From Polyangiaceae bacterium (GTDB lineage Bacteria; Myxococcota_A; Polyangia; Polyangiales; Polyangiaceae): a stretch of DNA of 51,067 nucleotides. Every line of letters begins with the position of its first letter. Position 1 is the stretch's first letter. The notes below the pieces were generated by a model, which worked only from the letters and a program-made list of their open reading frames with translations, did not search any database and was not told the origin of the DNA. Positions 1-45,624 of this stretch are shown here, in pieces. The stretch lies in the NCBI GenBank assembly GCA_016933275.1, contig JAFGBI010000050.1, forward strand, positions 1 through 51,067, given 5' to 3'. A program made the position numbers and the translations under genes.

Positions 1-578
1 CAGTCGATGTCCCCGTCACCGTCGTCGTCCACCCCGTTCTCGCAGTCCTCCCTCGGGAACGGGATGCCATACGCCGGAGCGAGCAGGCACGGTGCGGCGT
101 CCGCGCAATCGTCGTCAGCGCAGTCGACGTCTCCGTCGAGGTCATCATCCACGTCGTTGCCGCAGTCCTCCGCGAGGGGCATGGCGTAGCGCATACCCAC
201 ACAGACCGTGGCGCTCGCACAATCGTCGTCGGCGCAGTCGATGTCGCCATCGCCATCGTCGTCTGCGCGGTTCGCGCAGTCCTCCGGCTGGGGAACGCCA
301 TAGACGGGGGTTGCCTGGCAAGCCGACTCTGCCGCACAGTCGTCATCAGCGCAGTCGACGTCGCCGTCTCCATCATCGTCGACGTCGTTGGTGCAGTCCT
401 CCGCGAGAGGGACGCCGTAGAGGGCCCCACAGCCCTCGGGGCATTCGTCGGAGCACTCGCCGGGGCTACACTCCTCCTCGGCGTCGCCGTCGCCGCGATC
501 GCCGATGGGGAACTCATCACCACAGGCCACCACCGTGGAAACTCCAATCAGAAGGAACAGGGGACTCGTTCGGGCCAT
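1..578 (-). CDS. Cys/Asp-rich calcium-loop repeat lipoprotein (cassette A), C-terminus off window
   Basis: Reading leftward from an ATG at 578, preceded by a GGAGG about 9 nt upstream, the frame stays open to the window edge (192 codons seen). The N-terminus is a lipoprotein signal ending VVAC, with the lipidated Cys at residue 19. After a short acidic Cys-rich stretch come tandem units of about 39 residues, three complete and a fourth cut by the edge. Each has EDC, then DDDGDGDxDCADDDC, then a YGVP/YGIP-type spacer. Alternating Asp/Gly loops of this kind bind Ca2+ in thrombospondin type-3 and dockerin-like repeats; calcium binding here is inferred. The gene lies 60 nt after the anti-sigma-like gene and is the surface-lipoprotein member of cassette A. 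The true length and any C-terminal sorting signal are unknown. Confidence 0.85.
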   Translation of the reverse strand, partial: MARTSPLFLLIGVSTVVACGDEFPIGDRGDGDAEEECSPGECSDECPEGCGALYGVPLAEDCTNDVDDDGDGDVDCADDDCAAESACQATPVYGVPQPEDCANRADDDGDGDIDCADDDCASATVCVGMRYAMPLAEDCGNDVDDDLDGDVDCADDDCADAAPCLLAPAYGIPFPREDCENGVDDDGDGDID

Positions 579-638
579 CGCTCAACGCCTCCGTGGGGTA
601 TGTGCAGGTGGATGGGGGGATTGATCACGAAAAATGAT

Positions 639-1460
639 TCACTGGCTGGTGAGCCGCCGGACCCGCTCCGCGAGCGGGCTGGAGGGGTTCTGGGAGAGGA
701 AAGCCTGGGCCAGCGTGTGCGCGGCCGCCCGATTGCCGTCGAGGAGGTGGGCTTCCACTTCGAGCGCAACCGTCTCGGGCACGAACCGGCCCCGCGGGAA
801 GCGCTCACGGTACTGCCGCAACGTCGCCTGGGCGTTGCCGCCGTCCCGCCGGGCCAACGCCGCTCGAGCCACATCGATGAGCCGGATCTCCTCCGCGATC
901 GTCGCTTCGCGTGCCGACACCTCTGCCGCAGAGTCTGTAGGCTCCCGCGCCACCTCTTCCAACAGTGGGAAGCTCCCCGATGCGGGCTGGTCGCGCCCGA
1001 AGGCTGGTTCGGGCAGAAGCCCGGCACCCTCCGCACCCGCTCCCTCGCGAACGGCCTCGGGACTGATGGCCGTTGGCTCGGTGACCCCTGGCTCGGGTTC
1101 CTCGACAAAAACCGGTGCCGAGACGGGTTGCTGCCCCACGGCCGGCAGCGGGTTTCCTCGTATCCATGCCACGGCCGTGGCTGATGTGGTCGGGCTCGGA
1201 CCGTGGGGACCTTTGACCACCTGGACGCCGCCCGCAACCACCAGACCGGTCACCGCGCCCATCCCCAGCCATTTCACCATCAACAACCCACTGCTCGAGG
1301 CCGCAGCGGTGCCAGCCGTCATGGCGGGAGCCAAGCTCGCCGCCAGCCCCAGCACCCGGCGGGTCAGGGATCTGGTCGGGTGTTCAGCGCGTCCTGCCTC
1401 GAGGAGCTGGCGAGCCAGAGTCCTGGTTCCGCCATCGATGAGTCTCCGTGGTTCGTTCAT
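639..1460 (-). CDS. Putative atypical anti-sigma membrane protein with TPR-like tail (cassette A)
   Basis: 273 aa. A short basic N-terminus (about 35 residues, with LARQLLEAGR) is followed by one or two Ala/Gly-rich hydrophobic segments (about residues 38-85), a long Pro/Glu-rich linker, and a helical C-terminus of about 80 residues. The tail includes ALARRDGGNAQATLRQYRER and ends LAERVRRLTSQ, and looks like one or two TPR-type hairpins. The start ATG overlaps the sigma-factor stop (ATGA), implying translational coupling. That placement and the topology suggest it holds the sigma factor at the inner membrane. It has no HxxxCxxC zinc anti-sigma motif, so the role is inferred from context. Counterparts with the same layout are at 6440-7159 and 11908-12786. 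Confidence 0.75.
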   Translation of the reverse strand: MNEPRRLIDGGTRTLARQLLEAGRAEHPTRSLTRRVLGLAASLAPAMTAGTAAASSSGLLMVKWLGMGAVTGLVVAGGVQVVKGPHGPSPTTSATAVAWIRGNPLPAVGQQPVSAPVFVEEPEPGVTEPTAISPEAVREGAGAEGAGLLPEPAFGRDQPASGSFPLLEEVAREPTDSAAEVSAREATIAEEIRLIDVARAALARRDGGNAQATLRQYRERFPRGRFVPETVALEVEAHLLDGNRAAAHTLAQAFLSQNPSSPLAERVRRLTSQ

Positions 1461-2077
1461 TGCCGACCGCCTGTCTGTCGCCCTCGGGCCTCGATCCGCG
1501 CCACTCGCTGCTCGAAATCCGTGCGCCCCCTCCTCAACCTGGATGCCACCGTACCTGAGGGGATGTTGAGAACCTCAGCGATCTCGGCCATCGTGAACCC
1601 CTCGATCTCGTAGAGCACGAATACCGTGCGGAGGTCCTCGGGCATCGACGCGAGGATTCGGTCGAGCAGCGCCCGGCGTTGCCGCTGCTCCACCAAGACA
1701 TCCACCCCTGGCTCGTCGTTCTCGACCTCGGCCAAGTCCACCTCGGCTCGACGAGATCGCCGACGCAAGGCGCGGCGGGCGACGCGCAAGGCCGTTCCAA
1801 AGAGGAACGAGGCCTCGTTCCCGCGGCGGACCCCAGCGAGCTTGCGGGCGGTGATGAGGATGACCTCCTGAAGGGCGTCATCGGCGTCCTCGGGTGCCAG
1901 GCCGAGCCGGCGCAAAAATCGCCAGGTACCTGCATGGTGATCGGTGACGAGCTTGAGCAGCCGGGAGTCCTCGGCAGGCGTCCCAGTCTGGGGGGCCTCG
2001 ATGGAAACCTGGGGCACTTCCCGGCCGGGGACGGCAACCACTTCGGTGAGGTGCCGCGGGGGGTCCGTTTTGATCAC
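1457..2077 (-). CDS. ECF-like RNA polymerase sigma factor (cassette A)
   Basis: 206 aa starting at a GTG that overlaps the previous gene's stop (GTGA). Region 2 is recognisable at about residues 45-85 (APEDADDALQEVILITARKL) and region 4 at about 140-195, with MPEDLRTVFVLYEIEGFTMA and a recognition helix PSGTVASRLRRGR. There are only two sigma domains, as in ECF factors. It has a non-conserved N-terminal extension of about 35 residues, as do the two paralogues in this window (5757-6443 and 11213-11911). It probably directs transcription of its own operon or related envelope genes; the target is not visible. A 4-nt overlap with the downstream membrane protein argues for a sigma/anti-sigma pair. 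Confidence 0.92.
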   Translation of the reverse strand: MIKTDPPRHLTEVVAVPGREVPQVSIEAPQTGTPAEDSRLLKLVTDHHAGTWRFLRRLGLAPEDADDALQEVILITARKLAGVRRGNEASFLFGTALRVARRALRRRSRRAEVDLAEVENDEPGVDVLVEQRQRRALLDRILASMPEDLRTVFVLYEIEGFTMAEIAEVLNIPSGTVASRLRRGRTDFEQRVARIEARGRQTGGRQ

Positions 2078-3078
2078 GGAAAGCGCATCCCGACCGTGAG
2101 CTCGACGCTGCTACCCACCGCTTCTGGCTCGTAAACCAGTTCGCGATCCGGCAGCATGACGAAGCGATCACGAACCATCGGGAACAGCGCGCCGCCGCTC
2201 AGCGAGACCATAGCAACGCGGGTGAAGGTGATTGCTCCTCCTGCCCCGAGGGCGAACCAGGGACGGGTCTCGTGGAGCTTCTGCGGGACGCCCTCGCCCT
2301 CCACGCGCAGCGCCCCCAGGTCGGAGAGCACACACGGCCCGAGTTCGAAGCCCTCCGCGAGCACGAATGCAGGACAGATCCCGAGCCTCAGCGCCTGCCA
2401 ACGGAAGGACGCTTCCTCGGCGGACGGGCCGAACGTGCCCGTTTCGGCGAAGACCGGCTGGAAGCGCAGACCGAGCCGCCATCCTGGCTCGGTGGACAAC
2501 CCAATCTCGGCCTGCGGGGCGACGGCGAGGAGCGGTTCGGATGCCGGCCCCCAGATCGACAGGAACGAAACCCCAGCCGCGGCCTTCATCGTCCATTGTC
2601 CGGGCGATCCTGGTTCCCGCGGGGTTGGAGGTGCCGGCGCAGGCGACTCGGCACGGCCGACCGGCTCCTGGCGGTCCTCGAGGACGGCGGTTGGATCGAT
2701 CGCCAGCACCGTGACCAGGGCGAGCGCCGAGACGAGCTCGGCGCAGGAGGACTCCTCGAAACGCCGCGACGACGGCTCGGTTCCCAAGGTCATCTCGAGC
2801 CGGCCAACGAATCCCCGCTCGCTCGCCTGGATGCTCACCGTCACCGTCTTCGCGACCATCCCCGGTGTGGTGACGAACCAAGCCCGCTCGGTTCGCGAAC
2901 GCACGGCGTCCATGAAGGCAACGGCGTCGGGGCAGAGGTTCGGGGCCTCGTAGACGAGGCGGTACGGCTCCGGCGCCGTGGCGCGCGCGGGGGCTGACCC
3001 TAGTCCCAGGGCGCACACCGCCGCGCCGAGAAAGCCACGGTGACCGAGCAACGGGGAAGACACGGCGAGCGAGAGCAC
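2074..3078 (-). CDS. Exported two-domain protein, N-terminal Cys-pair domain plus barrel-like C-terminus (cassette A)
   Basis: 334 aa if the GTG at 3078 is used, 1 nt after the fibro-slime stop; a second in-frame GTG at 3063 is possible. A signal peptide ends SAPARA. The domain after it (to about residue 130) has two spaced Cys (APNLC... and ESSCAELVSALALV) and closes with AIDP. A Pro-rich linker follows, then about 170 residues of alternating polar and hydrophobic strands ending VELTVGMRFP, consistent with an outer-membrane barrel. The same layout recurs at 4169-5194 and 9986-11137; the shared pattern is Y/F...C, a GRLEL-type strand, then SC followed by ALALV. I do not recognise a named family. 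It is the first of the four core cassette genes and overlaps the sigma gene by GTGA. Confidence 0.8.
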   Translation of the reverse strand: MLSLAVSSPLLGHRGFLGAAVCALGLGSAPARATAPEPYRLVYEAPNLCPDAVAFMDAVRSRTERAWFVTTPGMVAKTVTVSIQASERGFVGRLEMTLGTEPSSRRFEESSCAELVSALALVTVLAIDPTAVLEDRQEPVGRAESPAPAPPTPREPGSPGQWTMKAAAGVSFLSIWGPASEPLLAVAPQAEIGLSTEPGWRLGLRFQPVFAETGTFGPSAEEASFRWQALRLGICPAFVLAEGFELGPCVLSDLGALRVEGEGVPQKLHETRPWFALGAGGAITFTRVAMVSLSGGALFPMVRDRFVMLPDRELVYEPEAVGSSVELTVGMRFP

Positions 3079-3079
3079 G

Positions 3080-3955
3080 TTATCGTACGACGAGATCGAC
3101 GAAGCAGGAGATGTTGGTCTCGATGCGGAAGCTCGAGTCCGTCGTGTGCCGTTCGGCGTGGAAGATGTCCATCCGATATTCCACCCCCGGCACGATGCCA
3201 AGGTACTCGGCGTCGGCGTCGAAATCGATCGTCCCCGCAGCGGGGCGGTGGAGGCCCCCGAGATCGAGGGCAAGCGAGTCGTTGACGAAGATCCAGAGGT
3301 CGTCGTCGCCGGTGAAAGTGAACTCTTGCCCAGCCTCGTAGGTGAAGGCCAGGTGGACCTCGGTCGTGAAGAGGTAGTTCGCCCCGGCCTCGTTTCCGCT
3401 GGGGGTGATCCCCCATCCCTCGGTCGGCTCGAGCGGAAAGAACTCGGCTGATTCGAACACGAAGCTGCCCGAGCCAGGTTCCGTCTCGGTCAGCGGGAGC
3501 TCCCGCTGGAAGGTCTGGTTCACGTCCGGTACGTCACGGTACCACTGGTCGAACGAGCTCTGGTCCTCGATGACATCATCGTTCGGAACCCACTGGCCGC
3601 TGCAGCTGCGTGGGGTATCGCTGTCCCAGATGCACCCCCTGGGGTCGAGGTAGACCGGCTTGCGATCGTCGCCCAGCTCGGTAGCGACGAGGCCGCGCCG
3701 AACCTCGTCACCGGGATCGACGCGCTCGAAATCCGGGTGTGTTTCGCTGAAATCGCGGACAGCGATCGGGATCACTACGTCACACCGATGCGGGTCGGCA
3801 CCACCATCGGGATCAACGAAGGTCCCTCCACCCGTCGACCCGGGCCCCGCCCCGGTGTTGAAGCCAGGATCCACCGAATGGCCTTCGGGTACCGAGCACC
3901 CCCCCAGCACGAGCGCGAAACCCACTCCCATCGAAGACGCCGTCCACCAACGCAT
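3080..3955 (-). CDS. Fibro-slime domain lipoprotein
   Basis: 291 aa. The ATG at 3955 is chosen over one 45 nt upstream because GGAGG lies 6 nt before it and a short lipoprotein signal follows directly (MRWWTASSMGVG, lipobox LGGC). A Gly/Asp linker precedes the fibro-slime domain. Diagnostic stretches are FTFTGDDDLWIFVNDS, LDLGGLH and MDIFHAERHTTDSSF, near the C-terminus (about residues 205-285). The domain is known from Dictyostelium prespore proteins, bacterial cellulosome-associated proteins and many myxobacterial surface proteins, and is thought to bind glycans or matrix. The stop codon is 1 nt from the next gene's start, so it heads the cassette A operon. Cassettes B and C have no such gene. 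Confidence 0.9.
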   Translation of the reverse strand: MRWWTASSMGVGFALVLGGCSVPEGHSVDPGFNTGAGPGSTGGGTFVDPDGGADPHRCDVVIPIAVRDFSETHPDFERVDPGDEVRRGLVATELGDDRKPVYLDPRGCIWDSDTPRSCSGQWVPNDDVIEDQSSFDQWYRDVPDVNQTFQRELPLTETEPGSGSFVFESAEFFPLEPTEGWGITPSGNEAGANYLFTTEVHLAFTYEAGQEFTFTGDDDLWIFVNDSLALDLGGLHRPAAGTIDFDADAEYLGIVPGVEYRMDIFHAERHTTDSSFRIETNISCFVDLVVR

Positions 3956-4168
3956 CGGGTTCCTCCAACCAAGCCGAAGTGCGCTCCTTTTGGGTAGCAC
4001 GTTCCACCGCGGCGGGGCAGACGTGGGTTCACGAGCGGTGATTCCGGTCGCGGGGCGGTTCCCGTCGACGAACGCGCGGGGCCATGTAAGCTACTCATCC
4101 GTCACCGGTCCCAGCGCGTCATCGATGGGCTTCGAACCAGGGAGCTTGCGGCGTCTTTGTCACACGGC
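3956..4168. promoter_or_regulatory. Divergent promoter region between cassettes A and B
   Basis: 213 nt separate the leftward fibro-slime/cassette A operon from the rightward cassette B operon, so both promoters should lie here. I see no convincing housekeeping -35/-10 pair in either direction. An ECF-type -35 candidate (GGAACC on the minus strand near 4055-4060) has no matching -10 at usual spacing. The call rests on gene orientation only. Confidence 0.4.
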
Positions 4169-5194
4169 ATGGTTCGCCTCGGGGTCGTCACCGTGGGGCT
4201 CGGGATCGCGAGCTCGAGCCTCGGCCAAGGTACGCTACGCTTCGAGCTCGCCGATGAGTGCCGGTCCGAGGAGCTCTTCTGGCGCCAGCTCGCGGCGCGA
4301 CTGGACCAGGGGGAGCCTCAAGTGCGGCTCGGTGAGGGTGCCGTGCGCGTGTTCCGCGACGGCACGACATTCGTCGGACGCCTCGAGCTCTCGGGAGCAC
4401 CCACGCGCGAGGTTCGCGGTGAGACCTGCGATGAGGTCATGGTTGCCCTCGCGCTCGTCGCGGCATGGCGGCTGCGACAATCCGAGGCGCCGGCTCGGTT
4501 GCTCGAGCCCCCATCCGATCCCCTGGCGCCCGTGCCCGAACCTCCCGCGCAGCCTCGCCCCCCCCCAGCGGACCCAACGACGACGCCGCGGCCTCCGCCC
4601 GTTCTCGAGCCAGCGCTCCCGCCCACTGGCCAGACCCGCCACCCTCGGTCCGCCCGCGTGAGCACATGGCGCGCCCACGACCGCTGGGTGGTGGGCTTGG
4701 GCGCGTTCGCGGTGTCCGGAGCCTCGCCAACCGTCCTCGGGGGACCCATCGCGTCGCTGGAGCGGGTTCGAGGCGGGCGCATCCCCTGGAGCCTGGTCGG
4801 CACCGCCGAATTCGGGGCGAGCCCTCGCTACGAGCGAGGGCCTGGCATCTCCCGATTCCGCTTCTGGGTTGGGAAAGCCGCCGCCTGTATCGAGGCGGGG
4901 ACCCTCGAGCCCTTCTCCCTGTGGCCGTGCTTCGAGCTCTCCGGTGGCGCGACCGAGGCCATTGGCGACGAGCTCGACCAGAACCGAAGGGTGCTGCAGG
5001 GCTGGCTCGCAGGTGGTCCGCTGCTGCGAGCCAGGCTGCTCCTGGGACAGCGCTTCGGCCTCGATGTGGCCGGCGGTGCGGCGCTCACCGCCCTTTGGCA
5101 CGAGACCTGGTTCGAGAACCCCGACTACCGCGTTCACCGCACGGATCCCGGGAGCCTCTCGACCGAGGTCCGGGTGACCTACCGGCTCCCCTGA
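4169..5194 (+). CDS. Exported two-domain protein (cassette B), paralogue of 2074-3078
   Basis: 341 aa from ATG 4169; a TTG at 4157 in the same frame is an alternative. The signal peptide ends about SSSLGQG. The first domain has FELADEC, TFVGRLELSG and ETCDEVMVALALV, matching the Cys-pair pattern of its paralogues. A Pro/Arg-rich linker (about residues 110-165) follows, then a strand-rich C-terminus ending EVRVTYRLP that could form an outer-membrane barrel. The substrate or signal is unknown. Unlike copies A and C, it is separated from its sigma gene by 562 nt of repeat-bearing sequence, so B may have a second promoter. Confidence 0.78.
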   Translation: MVRLGVVTVGLGIASSSLGQGTLRFELADECRSEELFWRQLAARLDQGEPQVRLGEGAVRVFRDGTTFVGRLELSGAPTREVRGETCDEVMVALALVAAWRLRQSEAPARLLEPPSDPLAPVPEPPAQPRPPPADPTTTPRPPPVLEPALPPTGQTRHPRSARVSTWRAHDRWVVGLGAFAVSGASPTVLGGPIASLERVRGGRIPWSLVGTAEFGASPRYERGPGISRFRFWVGKAAACIEAGTLEPFSLWPCFELSGGATEAIGDELDQNRRVLQGWLAGGPLLRARLLLGQRFGLDVAGGAALTALWHETWFENPDYRVHRTDPGSLSTEVRVTYRLP

Positions 5195-5260
5195 CTCTCT
5201 CCTTCCAGGAACCGGCGCGCAGGGCGCCGCAGTAGCCAGGGGTTCTGGGCGAAGGCCGCG

Positions 5261-5307
5261 CGATCCCGCCACGGGATCGGGCAGGATCGCGGGATCGCGG
5301 GATCGCG
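5261..5307 (+). repeat. Hairpin plus tandem GGGATCGC octamers
   Basis: CGATCCCG and CGGGATCG (5261-5279) form an 8-bp stem with a 3-nt loop. It is followed by three tandem copies of an octamer close to GGGATCGC (5283-5307). It lies 66 nt after the cassette B barrel gene and could act as a weak factor-independent terminator, although no T-tract follows. Confidence 0.5.
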
Positions 5308-5385
5308 TTCGGGGGATCAGCGTCACCAATACCGGCCATGATAGGTTTGGAGTCGGTCCGTTCGAATGAGCCACCCGTTCGGCCT

Positions 5386-5699
5386 AGAGCACCGATCACG
5401 TTGCCGACAGCAACGGCAGCTGGAAACGCGTCTACGCGAGGCGAGGACGAGTCTCCAGCGCTGCCTCTGGAGCAATCTGCTCCCGGTTCAGTGCTTCGGT
5501 CCCTTGGCGGTGCGATCTTGACCGGATCTGGCAGAAGATTCTTCAATGTTCTCGTGGCCATCAGCAATCAGGCGTCAACGATCCGGGTCTCCACGTTCTA
5601 CCTGACCGCTGACCGCCGATGACCTGGCCTGTTTGGTTCCGGCTCCGCCGGCTCAGGTTCTTGATTTGAGGTAGCAATCAGCCTGATTGCTGCTCTAGG
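5386..5699 (-). repeat. Palindromic intergenic repeat, copy R1 (interrupted)
   Basis: Reverse-orientation relative of the element at 24059-24216. The body (5386-5497) begins AGAGCACCGATCA and carries imperfect versions of the internal inverted repeat (GGCAGCTGGAAACGCGT and CCAGCGCTGCC). About 155 nt of unrelated sequence follows. The 44-bp arm, inverted here at about 5653-5699, then reads CCTAGAGCAGCAATCAGG on the minus strand and contains the perfect palindrome AGCAATCAGGCTGATTGCT. No ORF with coding character lies inside. Confidence 0.75.
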
Positions 5700-5756
5700 T
5701 CTCCCACCCACCGGGCGATCCACGCCCAACCCCACGCCGCAAGGAGCTCTCGGCCT

Positions 5757-6443
5757 TTGCTCCCCTTCCTGCAACCGAGCAAGCGTAGCGAGCCCTTCGT
5801 TGGCTCCGATCTGCCCGACCAGGGTTCGCCTCCTTCACCAGAACTCACCGTCGTTCCGCGGAATTGGGGGGGGCTTGCCTCGACCGAACCGAAGCCACCG
5901 GGTAACGGCCCGGCTCGCTCCGCCGCCGAGCGCCGCCTGCGCCAGACCCTCGAAACCTGTCACGACTTCTCCTGGCGAACGATGCAGCGCATGGGACTAT
6001 CGCCAGCGGACGCCGAGGACGCGGTTCAGCGGGTCTTCATCATCGTCGCGCGCAAGCTCGACGGCATCGAGGCCGGCCGCGAGGCTTCATTCGTTTTCGC
6101 CACGTCGCTGCGCGTCGCCTCGGAGACCCGGCGCACCCTGCGACGTCGCTACGAGGACCTGCCCGGGGAGCTCAACGAGGTCGCCTGTGCCCACCCGAGC
6201 CCCGAGGCCAACGCCCATCGGCGTGGGCTCCTCGGCCTGCTCGGCGTCGTCTTGGACCGGCTCCCCAACGAGCAACGCGAGGTCTTCATCCTGCATGAGC
6301 TGGAGCAGTGTACCCAGGCGGAGATCGCCGAGCTGCTCGCCGTCCCCGCGGGCACGGTGGCCTCACGGCTGCGCCGCGCGCGCCGCGCGTTCGAGAAGCA
6401 GGTCGCCCGGCTCCCCCGGTCGCTGCGAGAGGAGGCAAGGTGA
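5757..6443 (+). CDS. ECF-like RNA polymerase sigma factor (cassette B)
   Basis: 228 aa from a TTG start with AAGGAG 10 nt upstream; no ATG lies early in the frame. A variable N-terminal extension of about 60 residues precedes region 2 (SPADAEDAVQRVFIIVARKL, about residues 82-101) and region 4 (LPNEQREVFILHELEQC, then AEIAELLAVPAGTVASRLRR, about 168-210). It is closely similar to the cassette A sigma (shared xEDAxQxVxIxxARKL and GTVASRLRR). The next gene overlaps by 4 nt (GTGA). The target promoters cannot be read from the sequence. Confidence 0.92.
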   Translation: MLPFLQPSKRSEPFVGSDLPDQGSPPSPELTVVPRNWGGLASTEPKPPGNGPARSAAERRLRQTLETCHDFSWRTMQRMGLSPADAEDAVQRVFIIVARKLDGIEAGREASFVFATSLRVASETRRTLRRRYEDLPGELNEVACAHPSPEANAHRRGLLGLLGVVLDRLPNEQREVFILHELEQCTQAEIAELLAVPAGTVASRLRRARRAFEKQVARLPRSLREEAR

Positions 6444-7159
6444 CCCGTATCAAGCCATCACCCCTGGCGAGCGCCCTCGTGGACGCGGGGCGCCACCTGC
6501 CCGCACCCAGCCGAGCCGCATATGAACGCACCCGTACGAGCGCCCTCCTCGCGCTCGGGGCGGCCACCGTCGCAACCGCCGGGACCTCGGCGGTCAGCGC
6601 CGCTGCCAGCGCGACCGCACCCCCGCTGGGGCAGGCTGGGGCGAGCAGCATCGCCGCGGGGGCCGGAGCCGCGACGACGTTGGCGAAGGGCGCCTTGCCC
6701 GTTGCACCACTGGCGATCGTCAAGTTGCTCGGCGCCGGCGCGGTGGTGGGAACGCTCACCGTGGGGGCCGTCGAGGTCGGGCGCCATTGGCTCGAGCCAG
6801 GACCCGTCCTTCCCGAGACCCAACGACTCGGTCCCGCGACCTCCGCGAGAAGGATGCCACCGGTGCCGGTCGGCCGTGCCATGCCAGCCATACCCGCCCC
6901 CGCCCCGGAGGTCTTGCCAACGGCGGTTCCGCGAGACCCGGCGCCACCGCCGACCCGACAGCTGATGCTCGCGGCCGAAATCGAGTCCCTCGATTCGGCG
7001 CGGGCAGCCTTCGGGCGGGGAGAGCGCGAAGTCGCTCGTCGCCGGCTCGCGGAGTATCGCGCACGCTTTCCGAACGGACAGCTGATGCCCGAGGCCGCGT
7101 TGCTCACGCAGGCGCTCAGTGGGGATCAACGCGAGACGGAGCGGCCATCTCCAGAATGA
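6440..7159 (+). CDS. Putative atypical anti-sigma membrane protein (cassette B)
   Basis: 239 aa from a GTG overlapping the sigma stop, with GGAGG just upstream. A short N-terminus (ALVDAGRHLPAPSR) is followed by Ala/Gly/Thr-rich hydrophobic segments (about residues 35-115, probably two membrane passes). A Pro-rich linker leads to a C-terminal helical hairpin with LDSARAAFGRGEREVARRRL and YRARFPNGQL, recalling the RYRERFPRGRF stretch of the cassette A protein. No zinc-binding anti-sigma motif is present. Position and topology suggest sigma-factor control; the tail probably sits in the periplasm and may sense the partner proteins. Confidence 0.75.
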   Translation: MTRIKPSPLASALVDAGRHLPAPSRAAYERTRTSALLALGAATVATAGTSAVSAAASATAPPLGQAGASSIAAGAGAATTLAKGALPVAPLAIVKLLGAGAVVGTLTVGAVEVGRHWLEPGPVLPETQRLGPATSARRMPPVPVGRAMPAIPAPAPEVLPTAVPRDPAPPPTRQLMLAAEIESLDSARAAFGRGEREVARRRLAEYRARFPNGQLMPEAALLTQALSGDQRETERPSPE

Positions 7160-7188
7160 CACCCACTTCGATCGAGAAGGGACCTCCG

Positions 7189-8418
7189 ATGCGCACAAGC
7201 CTCATCACACTCACGCTCCTGCTCGTTCCGCTCACCCTCACGGCGACGGGTTGCGAGTACAACGAAACCATCGGCTCCGGCCTCGACGGCGAAGGGGGCG
7301 CGCCCGGTTGCACCACCGACTGCGGTGGCAAACCCGGAACGGGCGGCAGCGACCCCGGAACGGGCGGCGCGGCGGGAGCAGCTCCCCATACGTTCTGCGG
7401 CGATGGAGTGGTCCAGCCCGAGCGCGGAGAGGACTGCGACTTCGGCGACGCCAACGGCAGCGACTACGAGGGCTGTACTGACCGCTGCCAGCTCGGCCCC
7501 CGCTGCGGGGACGGCGTCATCCAGTCCGGGTACGAGCGGTGTGACGACGGGAACACCAAGGCCGGAGACGGGTGCTCCCCCACCTGCGGTGACGAGGGAG
7601 ACTGCGGTGACGCGATCGTCCAGGAGGGCGAGGAGTGTGACGACGGCGTCAACGAGACCGAATACGGCGCCTTCGGCTGCGGTCCGAATTGCAGGATTCC
7701 GGGCTATTGCGGCGATGCGCTCGTCCAGGAGGGCGAGGAGTGTGACGATGGGGAGAACGGCGGCGAAGGCGGCTGCGGTCCCGGTTGCCTCCTCGACTCG
7801 TTCTGCGGCGACGGCGACGCTCAGGGATGGGAGGAGTGCGACGAAGGACCGAACAACCGGGACGGCGTCTATGGCGCCTGCACCCTCGCTTGCGCCCTCG
7901 GGCCGCGCTGTGGGGACGGCGTCCTACAGGAGGAAGCCGGTGAGGAGTGCGACGACGGCAACAACGATGACCTCGACGGCTGTAGCTCCGTCTGCCTGAT
8001 CGAAGGCGTGTGTGGCAACGGCCTACGCGAGGGAAGCGAAGCGTGCGACAACGGCAGCGACAACGGTCAGATCGAATACGGCGGCTGCACCGTGGAGTGC
8101 GCGCTGACCCCGCGCTGCGGGGACGGCAACCTGGACGAGGTATTCGGGGAGCAGTGCGACGATGGGAATCGTACCGCCGGCGACGGCTGCTCGATCGTCT
8201 GCACTCTCGAAACCGCCTGCGGCGACGGCGTCGTGCAGACCGATTTGGGCGAGGACTGCGACGACGGCGAGAACGACGGCGGCTACGGCGAGTGCGACGA
8301 GGGTTGTGTCTTGGGCCCGCATTGCGGCGACGGCATCCTCGATCCGGAATACGAGGCGTGTGACGACGGCGGCCTCGAACCGCGCGATGGCTGCAGCCCA
8401 GAATGCCTCCTTCAGTGA
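7189..8418 (+). CDS. DUF4215-type Cys-rich repeat lipoprotein (cassette B)
   Basis: 409 aa from ATG 7189 (AAGGGA upstream). The signal ends TATGC (Cys 22), followed by a Gly-rich linker. The rest is ten Myxococcus-type Cys-rich repeats with the pattern CGDGxxQxxxGEECDDGN, then xxxDGCSxxC, matching DUF4215/TIGR02232. These repeats occur in myxobacterial surface proteins; their ligand is unknown, and the Asp/Glu-rich loops could bind metal. It lies 29 nt after the anti-sigma-like gene and ends cassette B. Confidence 0.92.
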   Translation: MRTSLITLTLLLVPLTLTATGCEYNETIGSGLDGEGGAPGCTTDCGGKPGTGGSDPGTGGAAGAAPHTFCGDGVVQPERGEDCDFGDANGSDYEGCTDRCQLGPRCGDGVIQSGYERCDDGNTKAGDGCSPTCGDEGDCGDAIVQEGEECDDGVNETEYGAFGCGPNCRIPGYCGDALVQEGEECDDGENGGEGGCGPGCLLDSFCGDGDAQGWEECDEGPNNRDGVYGACTLACALGPRCGDGVLQEEAGEECDDGNNDDLDGCSSVCLIEGVCGNGLREGSEACDNGSDNGQIEYGGCTVECALTPRCGDGNLDEVFGEQCDDGNRTAGDGCSIVCTLETACGDGVVQTDLGEDCDDGENDGGYGECDEGCVLGPHCGDGILDPEYEACDDGGLEPRDGCSPECLLQ

Positions 8419-8433
8419 GGCTCGACGAACTGG

Positions 8434-8730
8434 TCAGCGTCCGCGCTCCGGCTCGATGGTAGCCGAGAGTTCGCCGAACTTCACGCCTCACGTGCCGAGG
8501 AGCGCGTCCGCGTTCCTCGGCACCCGGGTGGCCGTGCCGCGAACAGCGATCATTTCGAGGCAGTTGTCACGACCGACGTGGGTGTGCATCGCGAATAGCA
8601 CCGCTTCGTGGTGATCGTGCTGGGTGGTCGTGAGCTCGTCGCCCAGATCGCGCCAGTGACGGTCGTGCACGAGCGTGATGGTACCGAAGCGGGGGGCAGA
8701 GCTCCGAAACGGCGCCGGGGAGAGCGCACC
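8434..8730 (-). pseudogene. nikR: Decayed nikR: C-terminal nickel-binding domain with in-frame stop
   Basis: The minus-strand frame reads GTITLVHDRHWRDL, TQHDHHEAVLFAMHTHV and DNCLEMIAVRG. This is the NikR C-terminal ACT-like domain, with all four nickel ligands of the family in register (QH, HxH and the Cys of CLE). A TGA at 8488-8490 interrupts the frame after ADALLGT; the frame then continues GVKFGELSATIEPERGR to a second stop at 8434-8436. The interrupted codon is where NikR proteins have the residue before GV. The N-terminal ribbon-helix-helix DNA-binding domain is absent, since the frame closes upstream at 8731-8733. It is therefore a remnant of a nickel-responsive repressor. No nickel transporter gene is nearby. 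Confidence 0.75.
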
Positions 8731-8897
8731 TCATGTCGCCACCCGCCCCGCAACGCGACGTGGGGCCCGGACGACGCGGGGTGTGTTTCCCGCTGCGCCA
8801 TCGCCGGACGAGGGCTCCCGTCGTTCCCCGATTGTGGAACGTCCGGGGACTTCCTACGCTGCCCAGGCGGACCAGCCCCAGGGAAAGGGAGCCACCG

Positions 8898-9860
8898 ATG
8901 AGACGCTTCGCATCCACCATGATCCTCGCCGCCGGGCTCGCCGTGCAGAGCTGCAGCGGAGCACAGCCGGCAGCCGTTGACCCGAGCACCGACTCCGGTC
9001 GGGAAGAGGCAGAGCCCGAGGCGATGGCGGAGACGGGGGACGGCGAACCCCTGACCGAGAGCCCGCCCCTCGGTGGCGAAGCCAGCGAGGTGACGGAGAA
9101 CCCCGAGGCTCGCTCCGATGTCGTCCAGGTGAATGAGGAGGGCGCCGGCGAGTGTCGCGAGAGCAAAGCCAAACTGAGGCTCTTCATCGACCGCAAGCTG
9201 GTGAGCATCGAGGACGGGCGGCTCCAGGCGGAGATGGACGGGCCCATCTGCCAGATCATGATGAAGATCACCCTCAAGGACGGGGTCACCGCGGTGGAGA
9301 AGGCGTTCCGCTACGCCGGGCCACAACGGGAGATGCGGTGGGAGCCGGTGCCTCGCGATGAGATAGAGAAGATCGAGATCCGCGTTGCGGCCGAGGATGG
9401 CGCCTATGAGAGTGTCTTTCTGGTGCCCTGGTCCGTCCGCATCGAGCACAAGGAGGTCGAGTTCGACACCAACCAGGCCCTCGTCCGTCCATCCGAGGTC
9501 CCATCCCTCGAGGACAGCTACGCGAAGATCAACGTCGTGCTCGAGAAGGTCAAGGAGAAGCAGCTCGGCAAGGTCGCCTTGTTCATCGTGGGCCACACGG
9601 ATACTCGAGGCAGCGATGAGCACAACATGACCCTGTCGAGGAATCGTGCTCGGGCGATCGCGGCCTGGTTCCTGAAGCGCGGACTCTGCATCCCAATCGC
9701 GTATGAGGGGTTCGGAGAGACCGCCCTCAAGAGAATGACGGCGGACGAGGTGGACGCGCAGGAGAACCGGCGGGCAGACTACATCCTGGCGGTAGAGCCC
9801 CCCGTCGTGACCAGCCGAGGCCGAGCGCCAGTGTGGCAGTGGATCTCCCAGGGTTGCTGA
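8898..9860 (+). CDS. OmpA-family C-terminal domain lipoprotein
   Basis: 320 aa from ATG 8898. Lipoprotein signal ends AVQSC (Cys 19). An acidic, low-complexity stretch (about residues 20-85) and a domain of about 100 residues precede a C-terminal OmpA/MotB-like peptidoglycan-binding domain. The OmpA part is marked by VEFDTNQALV, FIVGHTDTRGSDEHN, LSRNRARAIAAWF and ENRRADYILAV. It probably tethers the outer membrane to peptidoglycan. It lies between cassettes B and C and has no close equivalent near A, so membership in the cassette system is uncertain. Confidence 0.88.
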   Translation: MRRFASTMILAAGLAVQSCSGAQPAAVDPSTDSGREEAEPEAMAETGDGEPLTESPPLGGEASEVTENPEARSDVVQVNEEGAGECRESKAKLRLFIDRKLVSIEDGRLQAEMDGPICQIMMKITLKDGVTAVEKAFRYAGPQREMRWEPVPRDEIEKIEIRVAAEDGAYESVFLVPWSVRIEHKEVEFDTNQALVRPSEVPSLEDSYAKINVVLEKVKEKQLGKVALFIVGHTDTRGSDEHNMTLSRNRARAIAAWFLKRGLCIPIAYEGFGETALKRMTADEVDAQENRRADYILAVEPPVVTSRGRAPVWQWISQGC

Positions 9861-9985
9861 GACGAAGCACTGCGGTGTCGGTTCGTCCAGAACTTCGAGG
9901 TCGTAGGAGACGGTTGCCGGGCTCTCGGACCATGTCGCAAGCTCCGGGGTGGAGCGTGGCCGATGAGCGCCGGGACGATCGCACC

Positions 9986-11137
9986 GTGACAGCGGCCCAT
10001 CGAACCTTTGGTGGCGGCCTGGGCGTTTGCTCAATGCTGCTATGCCTAGCCCTGTGCAGCCACCGACCCGCCTCCGCAGAGCCATCACGGTGGTCGCTCG
10101 AGTGGAGAGCACCGGAGGGTTGTGCGAGCGCAAAGGAGATCCGCGAGGGGGTCTCGAGCCTGCTCGGAGTGCCGGTGGAGCCCCTGCTCGACGAGCCGCT
10201 CGAGGTGGTGGCCAGAGTAGAGGCCGCGGAGGGCGGCTACCGGTTGCGCCTGAGCGCATCGACGACGGGCCGCAGGGGAGAACGGGTCATCGACGTAGGC
10301 AGCTGCAGCGAGGCGATCCGCGCGGCAACGCTGCTCATTGCCCTCGCCATCGATCCGAGCTTCGAAGCCGAGCGCGCGACGGAAACCGCGGCCTCCGCGG
10401 CGTTCCCGCTGCCCTCCGTCGACGCGGAGGCTGGGACGGTCCCCTCGAGCGAGCCGCGCGGGCAGGTGGTGGACGCCGAGCCTCCCAATCCCCAAGCGAA
10501 GCCGAGTCCGGAACCCCGTCCCCATCACCCATCGCCGCCGAAGACCAGAAGGAAGACCGAGCGGGGTCGCCCGGCCCCCTCTCCCGTTCGTGGTGGGTCG
10601 GGACAAGGGCTTGGCGCCGACCTTGGTGGGGAGGCACGGCTCTCCGTCGGGGACCTGCCACGGGCAGCGGCGGGATTGGGTGTCGTGGCAGGCCTCACCC
10701 TCCCGAAGGATGCATTGCGGCTCGTCGTCGCGGGCTATCCGCTGCAGAAGGATGAGATCAGAGTCAATGGCTCCGAGGCAGGACAGTCGGTGTTCATGGG
10801 GGCGGATCTCGCTCTGTTCTGGTGCCGGGATCTAGTCCCCCGCGGAACCCGGTTCGGCCCCTGCCTGGGAGGTCACGTCGCTGTCGTCCGGGGCAATGCC
10901 AGGCGAATCGCCCAGGATATGGGCAGTGGAAATGCCCTGCTCCTCGGCCCGACCCTCGGGGCGAGCGGGAGCATCGCTACCGGGGGGCCGGTTCGAATCC
11001 TGACCGATGCGCACCTCCACTGGTTGCCAGCGGCCCCGCGGTTCGTGGTGAATCCCGAGTCCGACCAGCAGGAGGTCCACCGACCAAGTCCGATCGGAGC
11101 GGTCTTCGGCCTAGGGGCCGCCATCGACCTCCGCTGA
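9986..11137 (+). CDS. Exported two-domain protein (cassette C), paralogue of 2074-3078
   Basis: 383 aa from GTG 9986, which places the signal peptide (GVCSMLLCLALC ... RPASA) at the very N-terminus; an ATG at 9932 is the longer alternative. The first domain has APEGC, YRLRLSAS and GSCSEAIRAATLLIALAIDP, repeating the pattern of copies A and B. A Pro/Lys/Arg-rich linker (about residues 135-205) separates it from a strand-rich C-terminus ending VFGLGAAIDLR. Function unknown; outer-membrane or periplasmic location inferred. The sigma gene follows after 75 nt. Confidence 0.78.
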   Translation: MTAAHRTFGGGLGVCSMLLCLALCSHRPASAEPSRWSLEWRAPEGCASAKEIREGVSSLLGVPVEPLLDEPLEVVARVEAAEGGYRLRLSASTTGRRGERVIDVGSCSEAIRAATLLIALAIDPSFEAERATETAASAAFPLPSVDAEAGTVPSSEPRGQVVDAEPPNPQAKPSPEPRPHHPSPPKTRRKTERGRPAPSPVRGGSGQGLGADLGGEARLSVGDLPRAAAGLGVVAGLTLPKDALRLVVAGYPLQKDEIRVNGSEAGQSVFMGADLALFWCRDLVPRGTRFGPCLGGHVAVVRGNARRIAQDMGSGNALLLGPTLGASGSIATGGPVRILTDAHLHWLPAAPRFVVNPESDQQEVHRPSPIGAVFGLGAAIDLR

Positions 11138-11212
11138 GCACCTCGACCAGCGGACGCGGGCGAAGAAAGCTTCACCGATCCTGGCCGCTTCGGTCACCAA
11201 GGATCGCCAACG

Positions 11213-11911
11213 ATGCGCCCTGCCCGCTCCCCTGCCGCCGACGTGCCGGGCCTATTCGGCACCCGGTCGCTCGAGGGTGACCAGCACGCGACAGCCCGGG
11301 AACAGCGCGAGGCACCCGCGGCCGGGGACAATGCCCGTCACTGGTCGTCCAAACCGGTCGGCCCGGCGGGGAGCGGGCGGACCGCGGATGAGGAGAGCCT
11401 CGTCTTCGACAGCGTCTACGAAACCTATCTGCCCTATGTCTGGCGGACGCTCGCCCGCATGGGTGTTCCCGAGCCATCCGTGGAAGACGCGGCGCAGGAG
11501 GTCTTCATCGTGGTCCACCGGCAGCTCGGCGATTTCGAAGGTCGTTCGACGCTGAAGACCTGGCTTTTTAGCATCACCTTCCGGGTTGCCCAGGAGTGGC
11601 TGCGCCGTGCGCGGCGTACCCGATCGGCGACCCTCCCCGCAGAGGTCTCGGACGAACGCTGCCCCGGTCCGTACGAGGGCGCAGTGCGAAGCCAGGCCAT
11701 CGCTCTACTTTACCAGCTTCTTACCGCCCTCGAGCCCGAGAAGCGAGCGGTCTTCATCATGGGGGAGCTCGAGCAGATGTCGATCCCCGAAATCGCGGAG
11801 GCCCTCGGAGCCAACGCCAACACCGTAGCATCCCGACTGCGCAAGGCGCGCCGGGAGTTCGACGCAGCCGTGCGGCGACTCGCCGTACGGGAACGTGGGA
11901 GGTCCCCATGA
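11213..11911 (+). CDS. ECF-like RNA polymerase sigma factor (cassette C)
   Basis: 232 aa from ATG 11213 with AAGGA upstream. An N-terminal extension of about 60 residues precedes region 2 (PSVEDAAQEVFIVVHRQL, then STLKTWLFSITFRVAQEWLR). Region 4 follows (LEPEKRAVFIMGELEQMS, then IPEIAEALGANANTVASRLR). It is the most canonical ECF of the three: its region 2.2-2.4 resembles RpoE-type factors more than do copies A and B. The stop overlaps the next start (ATGA). Confidence 0.93.
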   Translation: MRPARSPAADVPGLFGTRSLEGDQHATAREQREAPAAGDNARHWSSKPVGPAGSGRTADEESLVFDSVYETYLPYVWRTLARMGVPEPSVEDAAQEVFIVVHRQLGDFEGRSTLKTWLFSITFRVAQEWLRRARRTRSATLPAEVSDERCPGPYEGAVRSQAIALLYQLLTALEPEKRAVFIMGELEQMSIPEIAEALGANANTVASRLRKARREFDAAVRRLAVRERGRSP

Positions 11912-12786
11912 ACGAGCCCCTCAGTCCCCGAGCGCGAGAGATCATCCGCGCCGCCATGGCCGCGGAAACCCCGCCGGCTGCGCCGCAGCGGGCCCGGGTG
12001 AAACGCGGTGTCCTCGCCGCCGCCCTAGCGCCCAGCATCGCTGCTGCAGCGAGCGGCGCGGAAGGCGGCGCGTTGAGGGCGGCAGCAGCGAAATCCACGC
12101 TCGGACTCGCCCTTGGCTCCTGGGGAGCGAAGGCCACGGCAGCAGTCGTGATCGCCATCGGAGCCGCGATCGCGGCGACGCAGGCCCCATCGGTGGAGAA
12201 GAGCCACCAGCCCGGGCTCGCGGCGAGCCCCGCCCCCCATTCGGTCCCCCAGCAGCTTGGGAACGACCCGGGCGCGGCGGCGCCGAGCCCAGCGGGGTCG
12301 AACGTCAGGATTTCGTCCGCGGCTCCGAGCGAACGCCCGCCGAACGGGATCCGGGGGCTCCCGTCCCCCGACCCGGCACCCAACCGAACAACTGTCCGGG
12401 GAACCCGGGCGGAGAACGTCACGGACCGACCCACTGCCGACGCAGCCCCGACCGGCGATCGGGGTACGGCGCCGTCCATGCACGGGCAACAGCTCCGCGC
12501 GGAGCTCGCCGCACTGGAGAGGGTGCAGGCCCAACTGCGCGCGGGTCGAGGGGATGCCGCGCTGGCGCTCCTCGACGCGCAGACCGGCGAAGGAACGCTG
12601 CTCGCGGAGGAGCGACTGGCGAGCGAGGTCTTCGCTGCCTGCCAGGCGGGACAAGAGGAACGGGCTCGACGGGCGGCCGGGGCGTTCCTCGCGCGAGCGC
12701 CGCGTTCGCTCTTGGCCGACCGGGTCCGACACTCCTGTGCCTTCGCGACAGAAGGCGACGAGCCCACCGGCATTTCGCAACACTGA
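11908..12786 (+). CDS. Putative atypical anti-sigma membrane protein (cassette C)
   Basis: 292 aa from ATG 11908, with GGGAGG close upstream and a 4-nt overlap with the sigma gene. A short basic N-terminus (SPRAREIIRAAMAAE) is followed by Ala-rich segments and one clear membrane helix (about residues 75-95, AVVIAIGAAIAAT). A long Pro/Ser-rich linker leads to a C-terminal helical repeat region of about 95 residues (LRAELAALERVQAQLRAGRG, LLAEERLASEVFAACQAGQE). That layout matches the copies in cassettes A and B. No HxxxCxxC motif. Function inferred from position. Confidence 0.75.
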   Translation: MNEPLSPRAREIIRAAMAAETPPAAPQRARVKRGVLAAALAPSIAAAASGAEGGALRAAAAKSTLGLALGSWGAKATAAVVIAIGAAIAATQAPSVEKSHQPGLAASPAPHSVPQQLGNDPGAAAPSPAGSNVRISSAAPSERPPNGIRGLPSPDPAPNRTTVRGTRAENVTDRPTADAAPTGDRGTAPSMHGQQLRAELAALERVQAQLRAGRGDAALALLDAQTGEGTLLAEERLASEVFAACQAGQEERARRAAGAFLARAPRSLLADRVRHSCAFATEGDEPTGISQH

Positions 12787-12833
12787 TCCACTGCCCTCCC
12801 GTCACTAAGGGACACGATTCACGGAGGCCCCCC

Positions 12834-14768
12834 ATGCGATTCCCATCGATCGACGCCCGTTCTTCCCTCTTCCTCGTGCTCGGTCTGTCGACCCTCGTCG
12901 CGACCGTGGGGTGCAAGTTCGGCGACGTGGAGGTGCCCCTCGGAAACACGGGGGCAGACGGGGGCGCCGGCGGGACACCGAACGCGTCGGGTGGCTCGGG
13001 TGGTGAGGCCTGCCCGGAGTATCCGATCCCGGTCTGCGAGGACGGCGAGGGGTTGGTCGCGAGCCGGGACGCCAACGGTTGCCCTCTGCCCGTTTGCCGC
13101 GTGTGTCCGGAGAATGCCCGCCTCACCTGCGGCGACGGCGAGACGCTGGTCGTGGAAACAGACGCCAACGGCTGCCCGCTCTCCGTCTGTCGGTCCTGCC
13201 CGGAATACGCAGCGCCCTCCTGTGAGGACGACGAGTCACTGGTGACCGGCAAGGACGCGAACGGCTGCCCCATGCCCATCTGCCGAGTCTGTCCCGATAG
13301 CTTCCCCGAGCTCACCTGCGACGCGGGCGAAACGCTGGTCACCGTCGCCGACGCCAACGGCTGCGCAGCACGGGCCTGCCGGAGCTGCCCCTTGGTCGAT
13401 ATCAGCTGTGACGAGGGCGAGCAGGTGGTCACCGTCGTGGACCCGAACGGCTGCCCCCTACCCCACTGCCAGGCTTGTCCCCCGGTCAGCGGGGAGATCG
13501 ACTGCGACGACGGCGAGTCGGTGGTGACAGCGACCGACAGCGACGGTTGCCCCCAGCTGGTCTGCCGTGCTTGTCCCGAATACTCCGAGCCTGATTGCAC
13601 CGAAGACGCCATCCTGGTCACGATCACCGACGGCAGTGGCTGTCCGAAGCCGATGTGCCAGAGGTGCCCTGCGATCGACATCACGTGCCAAGAGGGCACG
13701 CAGGTGGTCACCACCCCGGGCGAGAATGGCTGCCCCATCCCCTCCTGCGTGGCCTGTCCGGAATACGACAGCCCGCTCTGCGAGGACGCCCAGGTGATGA
13801 TCACCGGTGCGGACTCCCAAGGCTGCCCCATGCCGGTCTGTCACACCTGTTCGGACTACGATCCGGTCGAGTGCGGGCACGACGAAATGGCGGTCGATGG
13901 CGCGGACGAATACGGCTGCCCCATCCCCTCCTGCGAGCCTTGCCCTGACTACGCTCCCCCCGCCTGCGACGGGGAAGCGAACGAGGTCATGCTCTGGCGC
14001 GAGGACGCCGCCGGCTGCCCCATGCCGGTCTGCCAGTACTGTCCGGACTATGCGGAGTTGCGCTGCGCGGACGGTGAGGTGACGGCGTACGTCCCGGACG
14101 AGAACGGGTGCCCGATCCCGATCTGTCGAGCGGAGTGCTTCTCCCCGATGACCTTCCTGGAGAGCGGCTATCTGGACGGCGACGGTTGTGCCTGCACGGA
14201 CGAGGATCACGACCGCTGCATCGACGGAGAGGCCTTCGTATGCGCTGACGACGGCTGGCAGCTGGTCGAGGACGGCCCGTGCTACCCGTCGGTCTGCAAC
14301 GAGCCGCTCGCAGTGAACCCGAACTGCCTCATCGCGAACTGGACCGGCTTCTGGCATAACCCCGCCACGGGTCAGTGCGAGCCCTTCGTAGGCGGGTGCC
14401 CGGAGAACGACAACGCCTTTCATACCCTGGATGAATGCGTGGCCTCCTGCCAGGACCGGGTGACGACCACGGCCGTGGTCGAGTGGCCGAGCTGCGACGG
14501 CTTGGGCGAAGAGCTGAGTGGGGTGGGCACCGAATTCCCGTACGTGCGCCGGGGCGACGTGCTCGAAATCGAGCTATTCTGGGGCTGCGGCTGCCCGAGC
14601 CGGCCTGAGTTTACGATCGCCTACGAGCCAGCTTCGCCGCTGCGCCTCCGGCTGTGTCACGACGAGATGGCGGACTCCTGCGAGCTGGGTTGTGACTGGG
14701 CGCTGCCATTCGACCTTGGTCCGGCGCTCTTCGCGGCAGACGCCACGGAGTTCGAGTTCGTCGATTGA
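12834..14768 (+). CDS. Lipoprotein with twelve antistasin-like Cys repeats and a Kunitz/BPTI-like domain (cassette C)
   Basis: 644 aa from ATG 12834, with GGAGG 7 nt upstream. Lipobox VATVGC, then a Gly/Ala linker. Residues about 60-435 hold twelve repeats of about 30 residues ending in DxNGCPxPxCxxC, which resemble antistasin-type protease-inhibitor repeats. Next is a short Cys-rich segment, then a domain (nt about 14297-14453) with six Cys spaced 9-16-6-12-3, close to the BPTI pattern 8-15-7-12-3. It contains FWHNPATGQCEPF and GGC, followed by NAFHTLDEC, typical of Kunitz domains. A C-terminal domain of about 100 residues follows, with CGC and several further Cys. An exported inhibitor or adhesin is plausible; inhibition is not shown. 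It ends cassette C. Confidence 0.88.
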   Translation: MRFPSIDARSSLFLVLGLSTLVATVGCKFGDVEVPLGNTGADGGAGGTPNASGGSGGEACPEYPIPVCEDGEGLVASRDANGCPLPVCRVCPENARLTCGDGETLVVETDANGCPLSVCRSCPEYAAPSCEDDESLVTGKDANGCPMPICRVCPDSFPELTCDAGETLVTVADANGCAARACRSCPLVDISCDEGEQVVTVVDPNGCPLPHCQACPPVSGEIDCDDGESVVTATDSDGCPQLVCRACPEYSEPDCTEDAILVTITDGSGCPKPMCQRCPAIDITCQEGTQVVTTPGENGCPIPSCVACPEYDSPLCEDAQVMITGADSQGCPMPVCHTCSDYDPVECGHDEMAVDGADEYGCPIPSCEPCPDYAPPACDGEANEVMLWREDAAGCPMPVCQYCPDYAELRCADGEVTAYVPDENGCPIPICRAECFSPMTFLESGYLDGDGCACTDEDHDRCIDGEAFVCADDGWQLVEDGPCYPSVCNEPLAVNPNCLIANWTGFWHNPATGQCEPFVGGCPENDNAFHTLDECVASCQDRVTTTAVVEWPSCDGLGEELSGVGTEFPYVRRGDVLEIELFWGCGCPSRPEFTIAYEPASPLRLRLCHDEMADSCELGCDWALPFDLGPALFAADATEFEFVD

Positions 14769-45434: not shown

Positions 45435-45624
45435 GGAGAGATCCCCGACAGACCCGGGATCACGACCGCGGCTTGGCGCTGAAGAGGGCAGGCCGCGGTT
45501 GGCGTTCGGACCATCGCGGGCAGATCGAGGGAGAAGCCACGCGTCACGGCGCCAGGGTCGATGCCCGACCTTGGCGCCGCGATACCGAGCGCGCACTGGC
45601 TCGCCCCGCCTGCGATGTCACGGA

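Follow-up and report, generated by a model that had tools for sequence, protein, structure and literature searches.

The window analysed here is a stretch of 51,067 nucleotides from a Polyangiaceae bacterium (assembly GCA_016933275.1, contig JAFGBI010000050.1). At the contig start it carries three sets of four genes, encoding an exported protein (EXP), an extracytoplasmic function (ECF) sigma factor (SIG), a single-pass membrane protein (MEM) and a lipoprotein. This cassette is conserved and recurrent in the class to which the organism belongs. EXP and MEM occur together, the sigma factors form one branch, and the lipoproteins share a short tag, approximately V-x-[LIV]-G at +5 to +9 from the lipid-bearing cysteine, which is present in all three cassette lipoproteins of the window. 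We propose, rating the chance slightly below even, that the cassette is a trans-envelope relay from surface to genes which resembles Fec-type signalling and is built from unrelated parts.

As described in the first-pass annotation of this DNA, the three sets have the same gene order, A leftward on the minus strand and B and C rightward on the plus strand (Table 1), and in each of them SIG and MEM overlap by 4 nt (ATGA in A, GTGA in B and ATGA in C). In 74 of 83 triads from this genome and its relatives some start codon yields exactly this overlap, the script having chosen the start codon nearest to 4 nt. EXP also overlaps SIG by 4 nt in cassette A. Median gaps are 39 nt from the EXP stop to the sigma domain and 57 nt from the MEM stop to the lipoprotein. 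Cassette B is atypical, its EXP stop lying about 560 nt ahead of the first possible SIG start and its MEM being without the last helical repeat, and it may be decaying. Genes were called by our own codon-usage script and lipoproteins by our own lipobox rule. The first three proteins had been taken for paralogues, and pairwise comparison agrees for the sigma factors (E 1e-16 to 1e-33) and the EXPs (A-C 1.5e-5, B-A 0.002, B-C 0.004). For the MEMs the values are 5e-7 for A-B and 0.07 for C-A, with no pairwise match listed for B-C; all three fit one MEM profile, and at profile level the sets are relatives.

The count of three given in the first-pass annotation holds for the window but not for the genome, where 20 EXP-SIG-MEM triads lie each on one strand, the window sets being three of them. 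Sixty-three places with a sigma region 4 were found at E 0.001 or better (150 of 175 candidates scored), and the first 18 EXP rows, from which the EXP profile was built, were taken from their surroundings. The whole-genome search with this profile gave 23 places (150 of 311 candidates scored), 20 of which sit in triads, namely the 18 profile rows and two of the five new places. There are also 20 MEM genes at E 1e-25. In one triad, locus L019, the lipoprotein is placed between EXP and SIG, and two SIG-MEM pairs (L034 and L052) are without EXP. The idea that EXP is always tied to sigma factors was rejected, since the remaining three EXP places (C126, C350 and C226) have neither sigma nor MEM.

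EXP (E 1e-8) and MEM (E 1e-25) were both found in one and the same set of 23 genomes among 29 relatives, with at most 71 (EXP) and 88 (MEM) candidates scored per genome. At these cut-offs the two families are jointly present or absent in 29 of 29, and their match numbers track as well. The adjacency of EXP to sigma genes, on which the first-pass annotation had made its reading depend, was confirmed in the relatives: an ECF sigma lies on the same strand within 600 nt downstream in 49 of 60 sampled EXP loci, and the triad is complete in 45 of the 60 and in 17 of 20 further loci. Two of the 11 sampled loci without such a sigma are ordered SIG-MEM-EXP. When the search started from the sigma factor in named genomes, MEM was next in 69 of 73 independent loci and EXP before in 58 (the best 80 of 109 sigma relatives, minus 7 overlaps).

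Triads recur in the complete chromosomes of Minicystis rosea and Sorangium cellulosum So0157-2, where adjacency was judged by eye from the listed places. A sigma region 4 lies within 250 nt upstream of 16 of the 17 MEM genes in M. rosea (E 1e-20 or better; the 17th has none among the matches listed) and, among listed matches, of 8 of the 12 in So0157-2 at the same threshold. Two of 17 EXP places in M. rosea (E 1e-17 or better) stand apart from any MEM. Across the phylum the cassette family was found, at a strict cut-off, in at least 18 of 140 genomes, 15 of them in the same class (own genome included) and three outside; this is a lower bound because at most 15 candidates were scored per genome.

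SIG belongs to the ECF family, region 4 being over the Pfam cut-off in A, B and C and region 2 in A and C, with B below it (20.0 of 24 bits). In a quick tree, which does not include the sigmas of L019 and L069 because the gene caller overlooked them, the cassette sigmas and the sigma of locus L027 together make up one branch (Shimodaira-Hasegawa-like approximate likelihood ratio test, SH-aLRT, 98). The membrane protein partnering the L027 sigma (L027:4493-5458, plus strand) has a different periplasmic part with no Pfam match, possibly a sensor swap. Tandem duplication as the origin of the three window sets was partly rejected, as the tree pairs sigma A with sigma B (SH-aLRT 85) but puts sigma C together with copies from other parts of the genome. 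Other ECF loci of this genome (L053, L058, L059 and L031) have the order SIG, membrane protein, exported protein, lipoprotein; their membrane proteins carry FecR and tetratricopeptide repeat (TPR) matches in L053 and TPR in L058 and L059, and their exported proteins show no detectable relationship to EXP.

No Pfam or NCBIfam family was found above cut-off in the window EXPs, the Pfam scan giving nothing for EXP A or B and one insignificant match for EXP C. The structure prediction for EXP A has the fold of the TolB N-terminal domain at residues 35-131, the alignment starting near residue 35, close behind the signal peptide; at residues 160-334, in place of the TolB beta-propeller, stands a barrel of eight strands. 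The topology predicted for EXP is an outer-membrane barrel preceded by a periplasmic domain at the N-terminus. An STN-type domain gave no Pfam match in EXP, and the TolB fold is among the matches listed for its N-terminal part. A protein search with the EXP profile (7995 best candidates scored) returned 16 relatives with no Pfam domain and no name beyond hypothetical protein. Kinship with the exported proteins of other ECF clades (10 proteins) was rejected, as there was no profile match and the hhalign probability was 8.

The window MEMs likewise gave no Pfam or NCBIfam family above cut-off, a TPR match of MEM A being just below. The predicted layout begins with a short helical segment and a membrane helix; a Pro-rich stalk (about 90 residues) then carries a TPR tip. 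In the AlphaFold model of MEM A the mean predicted local distance difference test score (pLDDT) is 72.8, with 94-98 in the tip blocks and about 50 in the membrane-helix region. The predicted N-terminal helices (14-24 and 30-48), followed by the likely membrane helix, have no family match; the class I anti-sigma domain is described as a bundle of helices 1-3 plus helix 4 (PMC7406223). YbgF was rejected as a special relative of the tip: Foldseek listed it first at E 0.0095, with none at E 0.001 or better, and in VIA-align it tied with many TPR folds. By sequence the nearest is BamD (1.6e-5).

The lipoproteins had been called unrelated, which is correct for their domains but overlooks the tag behind the lipobox. 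Tagged cargo lipoproteins amount to 10 of 13 in the own genome, 14 of 22 in the first relatives, 7 of 9 in a hold-out set and 22 of 27 in the named genomes, together 53 of 71. The pattern used (^C.{2,8}[LIV]G) was written with the cargos of the own genome and the first relatives already in view (24 of these 35 being tagged), and the later 9 and 27 are the fairer test. In the own genome the tag was found in 4 of 30 lipoproteins from 20 other stretches of 20 kb and in 6 of 39 from own loci at a distance from the cassettes; counted separately, it occurs in 11 of 60 lipoproteins within 6 kb of cassettes but outside the slot. At the sigma-found loci of the named genomes the figure for other lipoproteins is 4 of 45, those starting within 3.5 kb of the sigma being excluded from this control. 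The tag glycine stands at +8 or +9 in 40 of the 53 tagged cargos and has a valine three positions ahead of it in 22, six times background. Gly/Ser/Thr-rich stretches follow the tag in many cargos. The first 44 cargo calls were all kept, including two that look like false lipoproteins (L105 and L131) and three whose lipid cysteine is perhaps misplaced (L088, L090 and L097). One tagged lipoprotein (CTIRIG; L153:12793-13536, plus strand) lies in a 20-kb stretch without a cassette and is possibly a remote regulon member.

Cargo domains include DUF4215, Kunitz, Kazal, serpin, GH3, GH8, pectate lyase, glucuronoyl esterase, RCC1 and PD40 propellers and a laminin-G-like domain, with one polysaccharide lyase match below the Pfam cut-off; 8 of 21 scanned cargos have no Pfam match (the scan omitted L095, L105 and L131 and added L019, L015 and L173). 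The fourth gene of the set is present in all three window cassettes but is not universal: in EXP-positive pairs of the own and named loci a lipoprotein is directly downstream in 39 of 73 and absent from that place in 34, a few of which have it elsewhere (L019, and L015, where it is divergent).

In the relay that we propose, MEM would keep the ECF sigma bound at the inner membrane until EXP passes on a signal about the tagged lipoprotein, whereupon MEM would free it. The short N-terminal helical segment of MEM would bind the sigma, and the TPR tip on its Pro-rich stalk would reach the TolB-N-like domain hanging from the EXP barrel, a contact suggested because the TolB N-terminal domain meets the inner-membrane protein TolA (PMC7391070). 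The tag would be the part of the lipoprotein recognised by the EXP/MEM pair. Its letters show weak tracking of SIG, a less certain one of MEM and none of EXP, a faint hint that the tag is read by MEM and not by EXP. The remainder of the lipoprotein, be it glycanase, lectin-like, protease inhibitor or Cys-rich repeats, would be displayed and work at or beyond the surface. The freed sigma would then transcribe its own operon, in which case each copy would match the supply of one lipoprotein to the demand for it. Autoregulation is assumed because of the operon structure with its short gene gaps; in the 230-nt stretches before 140 EXP matches no bipartite motif count was above the shuffle maximum, which leaves it without promoter support, and some rare motif pairs exceeded their own expectation. 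A relay of this kind had been put forward in the first-pass annotation, and the predicted topology (barrel, periplasmic tip and cytoplasmic sigma) fits it; for the release of the sigma by MEM and for sensing by EXP or the lipoprotein we infer the steps. One could go further and see in the Polyangia a plug-and-play surface display, in which the tag docks any passenger lipoprotein onto a private barrel/TPR/sigma receiver, with about twenty insulated surface-to-gene channels per genome and MEM as a large unrecognised class of anti-sigma factors, an extension that we consider doubtful.

The same genes could be ordinary ECF/anti-sigma operons, in which MEM is an unusual anti-sigma factor, the sigma controls the lipoprotein gene, EXP is a co-regulated structural outer-membrane protein that takes no part in signalling, and the tag is a general lipoprotein sorting signal of these bacteria. 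Operon layout with 4-nt overlaps is what this account would predict, SIG-MEM pairs without EXP do occur (L034, L052, L192 and L215), and the loose tag is also present in the 4 of 30 lipoproteins elsewhere in the genome. It sits badly with the co-tracking of EXP and MEM in all 29 relatives and in match numbers, with the concentration of the tag in cassette lipoproteins and with tag letters that follow their own SIG, and we take it to be possible, though less probable than the relay.

EXP might instead be a dedicated gate placing the tagged lipoprotein on the surface, with SIG-MEM only adjusting the amount and the tag acting as an export signal akin to the lipoprotein export signal (LES) of Bacteroidetes. 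An eight-stranded barrel normally has no open channel, threading has been argued against for OmpA-RcsF (PMC7553776), tag letters do not track EXP, and in many EXP-positive sets the immediate neighbour is not a lipoprotein; on these grounds we judge the gate unlikely, even if the predicted barrel with its periplasmic domain, the nearly fixed distance of the tag from the cysteine, as in LES, and the Gly/Ser/Thr-rich stretches behind it would all suit an exporter. Chance clustering or an assembly artefact would be conceivable for a draft of 464 contigs with 3.58% contamination, in which lipoprotein A is cut by the contig end; it is refuted to a negligible residue because the cassette recurs in the same order in other genomes, including the two complete chromosomes. 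We retain the Fec-like relay as the preferred reading.

Table 1. Genes and lipoprotein tags of cassettes A, B and C in the window.
Feature	Position	Strand	Remarks
EXP A	2074-3078	minus	predicted TolB-N-like domain and 8-stranded barrel
SIG A	1457-2077	minus	ECF sigma, regions 2 and 4; Pfam PF08281 4e-17, PF04542 4.9e-7
MEM A	639-1460	minus	predicted to have two N-terminal helices, then a membrane helix, a Pro-rich stalk and a TPR tip (AlphaFold model and family alignment)
Lipoprotein A	3-578	minus	acidic DDDGDGD repeats, 18 Cys in portion present; no Pfam match; 3' end beyond contig start
Tag of lipoprotein A	501-524	minus	lipid Cys then GDEFPIG (CGDEFPIG)
EXP B	4169-5194	plus	EXP profile E 2.5e-79 (sequence itself one profile row)
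SIG B	5757-6443	plus	Pfam PF08281 3.6e-17; start uncertain, codon-usage gene caller favours ATG 5982
MEM B	6440-7159	plus	last helical repeat absent (MEM family alignment/profile)
Lipoprotein B	7189-8418	plus	DUF4215 repeats; Pfam PF13948 1.7e-33
Tag of lipoprotein B	7252-7275	plus	Cys then EYNETIG (CEYNETIG)
EXP C	10034-11137	plus	EXP profile E 4.2e-84 (sequence itself one profile row); start possibly further upstream
SIG C	11213-11911	plus	Pfam PF08281 7.1e-13, PF04542 1.1e-11
MEM C	11908-12786	plus	MEM profile E 7.5e-43 (sequence itself one profile row)
Lipoprotein C	12834-14768	plus	Cys-rich repeats and Kunitz domain; Pfam PF00014 2.4e-8
Tag of lipoprotein C	12912-12944	plus	Cys then KFGDVEVPLG (CKFGDVEVPLG)

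Other genes of the window encode further lipoproteins, lipoprotein-like proteins and an OmpA-family protein. An untagged lipoprotein with a fibro-slime domain (3080-4000, minus strand; TIGR02148, 1.6e-28) has its stop 1 nt upstream of EXP A, and its gene may head the A operon. Directly upstream of EXP C is the gene of an OmpA-family protein (8919-9860, plus strand). About 600 nt past cassette C an untagged lipoprotein-like protein with a GH5 cellulase and a CBM6 is encoded (15370-17136, plus strand), and three adjacent genes at 44616-48486 encode untagged lipoprotein-like proteins with acidic N-termini, one of which has a VWA domain.

The novelty lies in two families, EXP and MEM, without Pfam or NCBIfam match and in the lipoprotein tag, all within what would be ECF surface signalling. 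Large myxobacterial genomes hold more than 100 matches to sigma region 4, with 113 each in S. cellulosum So0157-2 and M. rosea, and some of these sigma factors may have MEM as their partner (12 and 17 MEM genes, respectively). If MEM is indeed an anti-sigma class, this would help to explain the annotation of So0157-2, which has 109 sigma factors versus only 6 anti-sigma factors. Through the tag one can ask, at the level of sequence, how unrelated surface-type proteins, glycanases and protease inhibitors among them, could join one signalling design. Among the papers listed by our searches of the open PMC literature, none has a title or abstract start that describes the cassette or the tag.

Fec-type signalling is described as an outer-membrane barrel with an N-terminal periplasmic domain, a single-pass regulator and an ECF sigma (PMC9249621). 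Like FecA-FecR-FecI, the cassette has an ECF sigma, a regulator with the N-terminus in the cytoplasm and the C-terminus in the periplasm (predicted for MEM) and a barrel (predicted for EXP). It differs in the predicted eight-stranded barrel in place of a plugged receptor, the TolB-N-like fold, the TPR tip and the added tagged lipoprotein. A search for the FecR domain (PF04773) at E up to 0.5 found nothing in the window MEMs, and EXP, with no significant Pfam match and eight predicted strands in EXP A, would not be a plugged TonB-dependent receptor barrel. By the tests made here the cassette shares with Fec only the sigma family, and the signalling arrangement would be alike.

In the Tol-Pal system (TolB, TolA and CpoB/YbgF), the N-terminal TolA-binding segment of TolB has about 12 residues (PMC7391070) and its C-terminal beta-propeller binds Pal. 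The predicted TolB-N fold of EXP, the predicted anchor, stalk and globular tip of MEM, as in TolA, and the lipoprotein that often completes the set recall this system. Unlike it, the cassette has a sigma and neither a beta-propeller nor a Pfam TolB match, and the sets showed no genes resembling TolQR. SigI-RsgI of Clostridium thermocellum and the Bacteroides ECF systems likewise have a number of sigma/anti-sigma pairs side by side that are linked to proteins acting on polysaccharides (PMC10766802). Among the cassette cargos GH3, GH8, pectate lyase and glucuronoyl esterase recall SigI-RsgI, whereas the sigma partner is another, a predicted barrel is added, and protease inhibitors and Cys-rich repeats are carried as well. 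Pfam holds an RsgI N-terminal domain family, which gave no match in the window MEMs.

For the tag, the nearest likenesses are the Bacteroidetes LES, K-(D/E)2 or Q-A-(D/E)2 near +2 to +6 (PMC5080379), and the +7 Ala rule of Myxococcus xanthus extracellular-matrix lipoproteins (PMC3222651), both being short motifs at a near-fixed distance past the lipid cysteine in unrelated lipoproteins. The cassette tag, V-x-[LIV]-G with its glycine mostly at +8/+9, differs from both the LES pattern and the Ala rule and is enriched beside one regulator family. Finally, OmpA-RcsF of the Rcs system also combines a lipoprotein and a small outer-membrane barrel with an inner-membrane regulator opposite (PMC7553776); Rcs uses a phosphorelay, where the cassette has instead a sigma factor, a predicted TPR tip and the tag.

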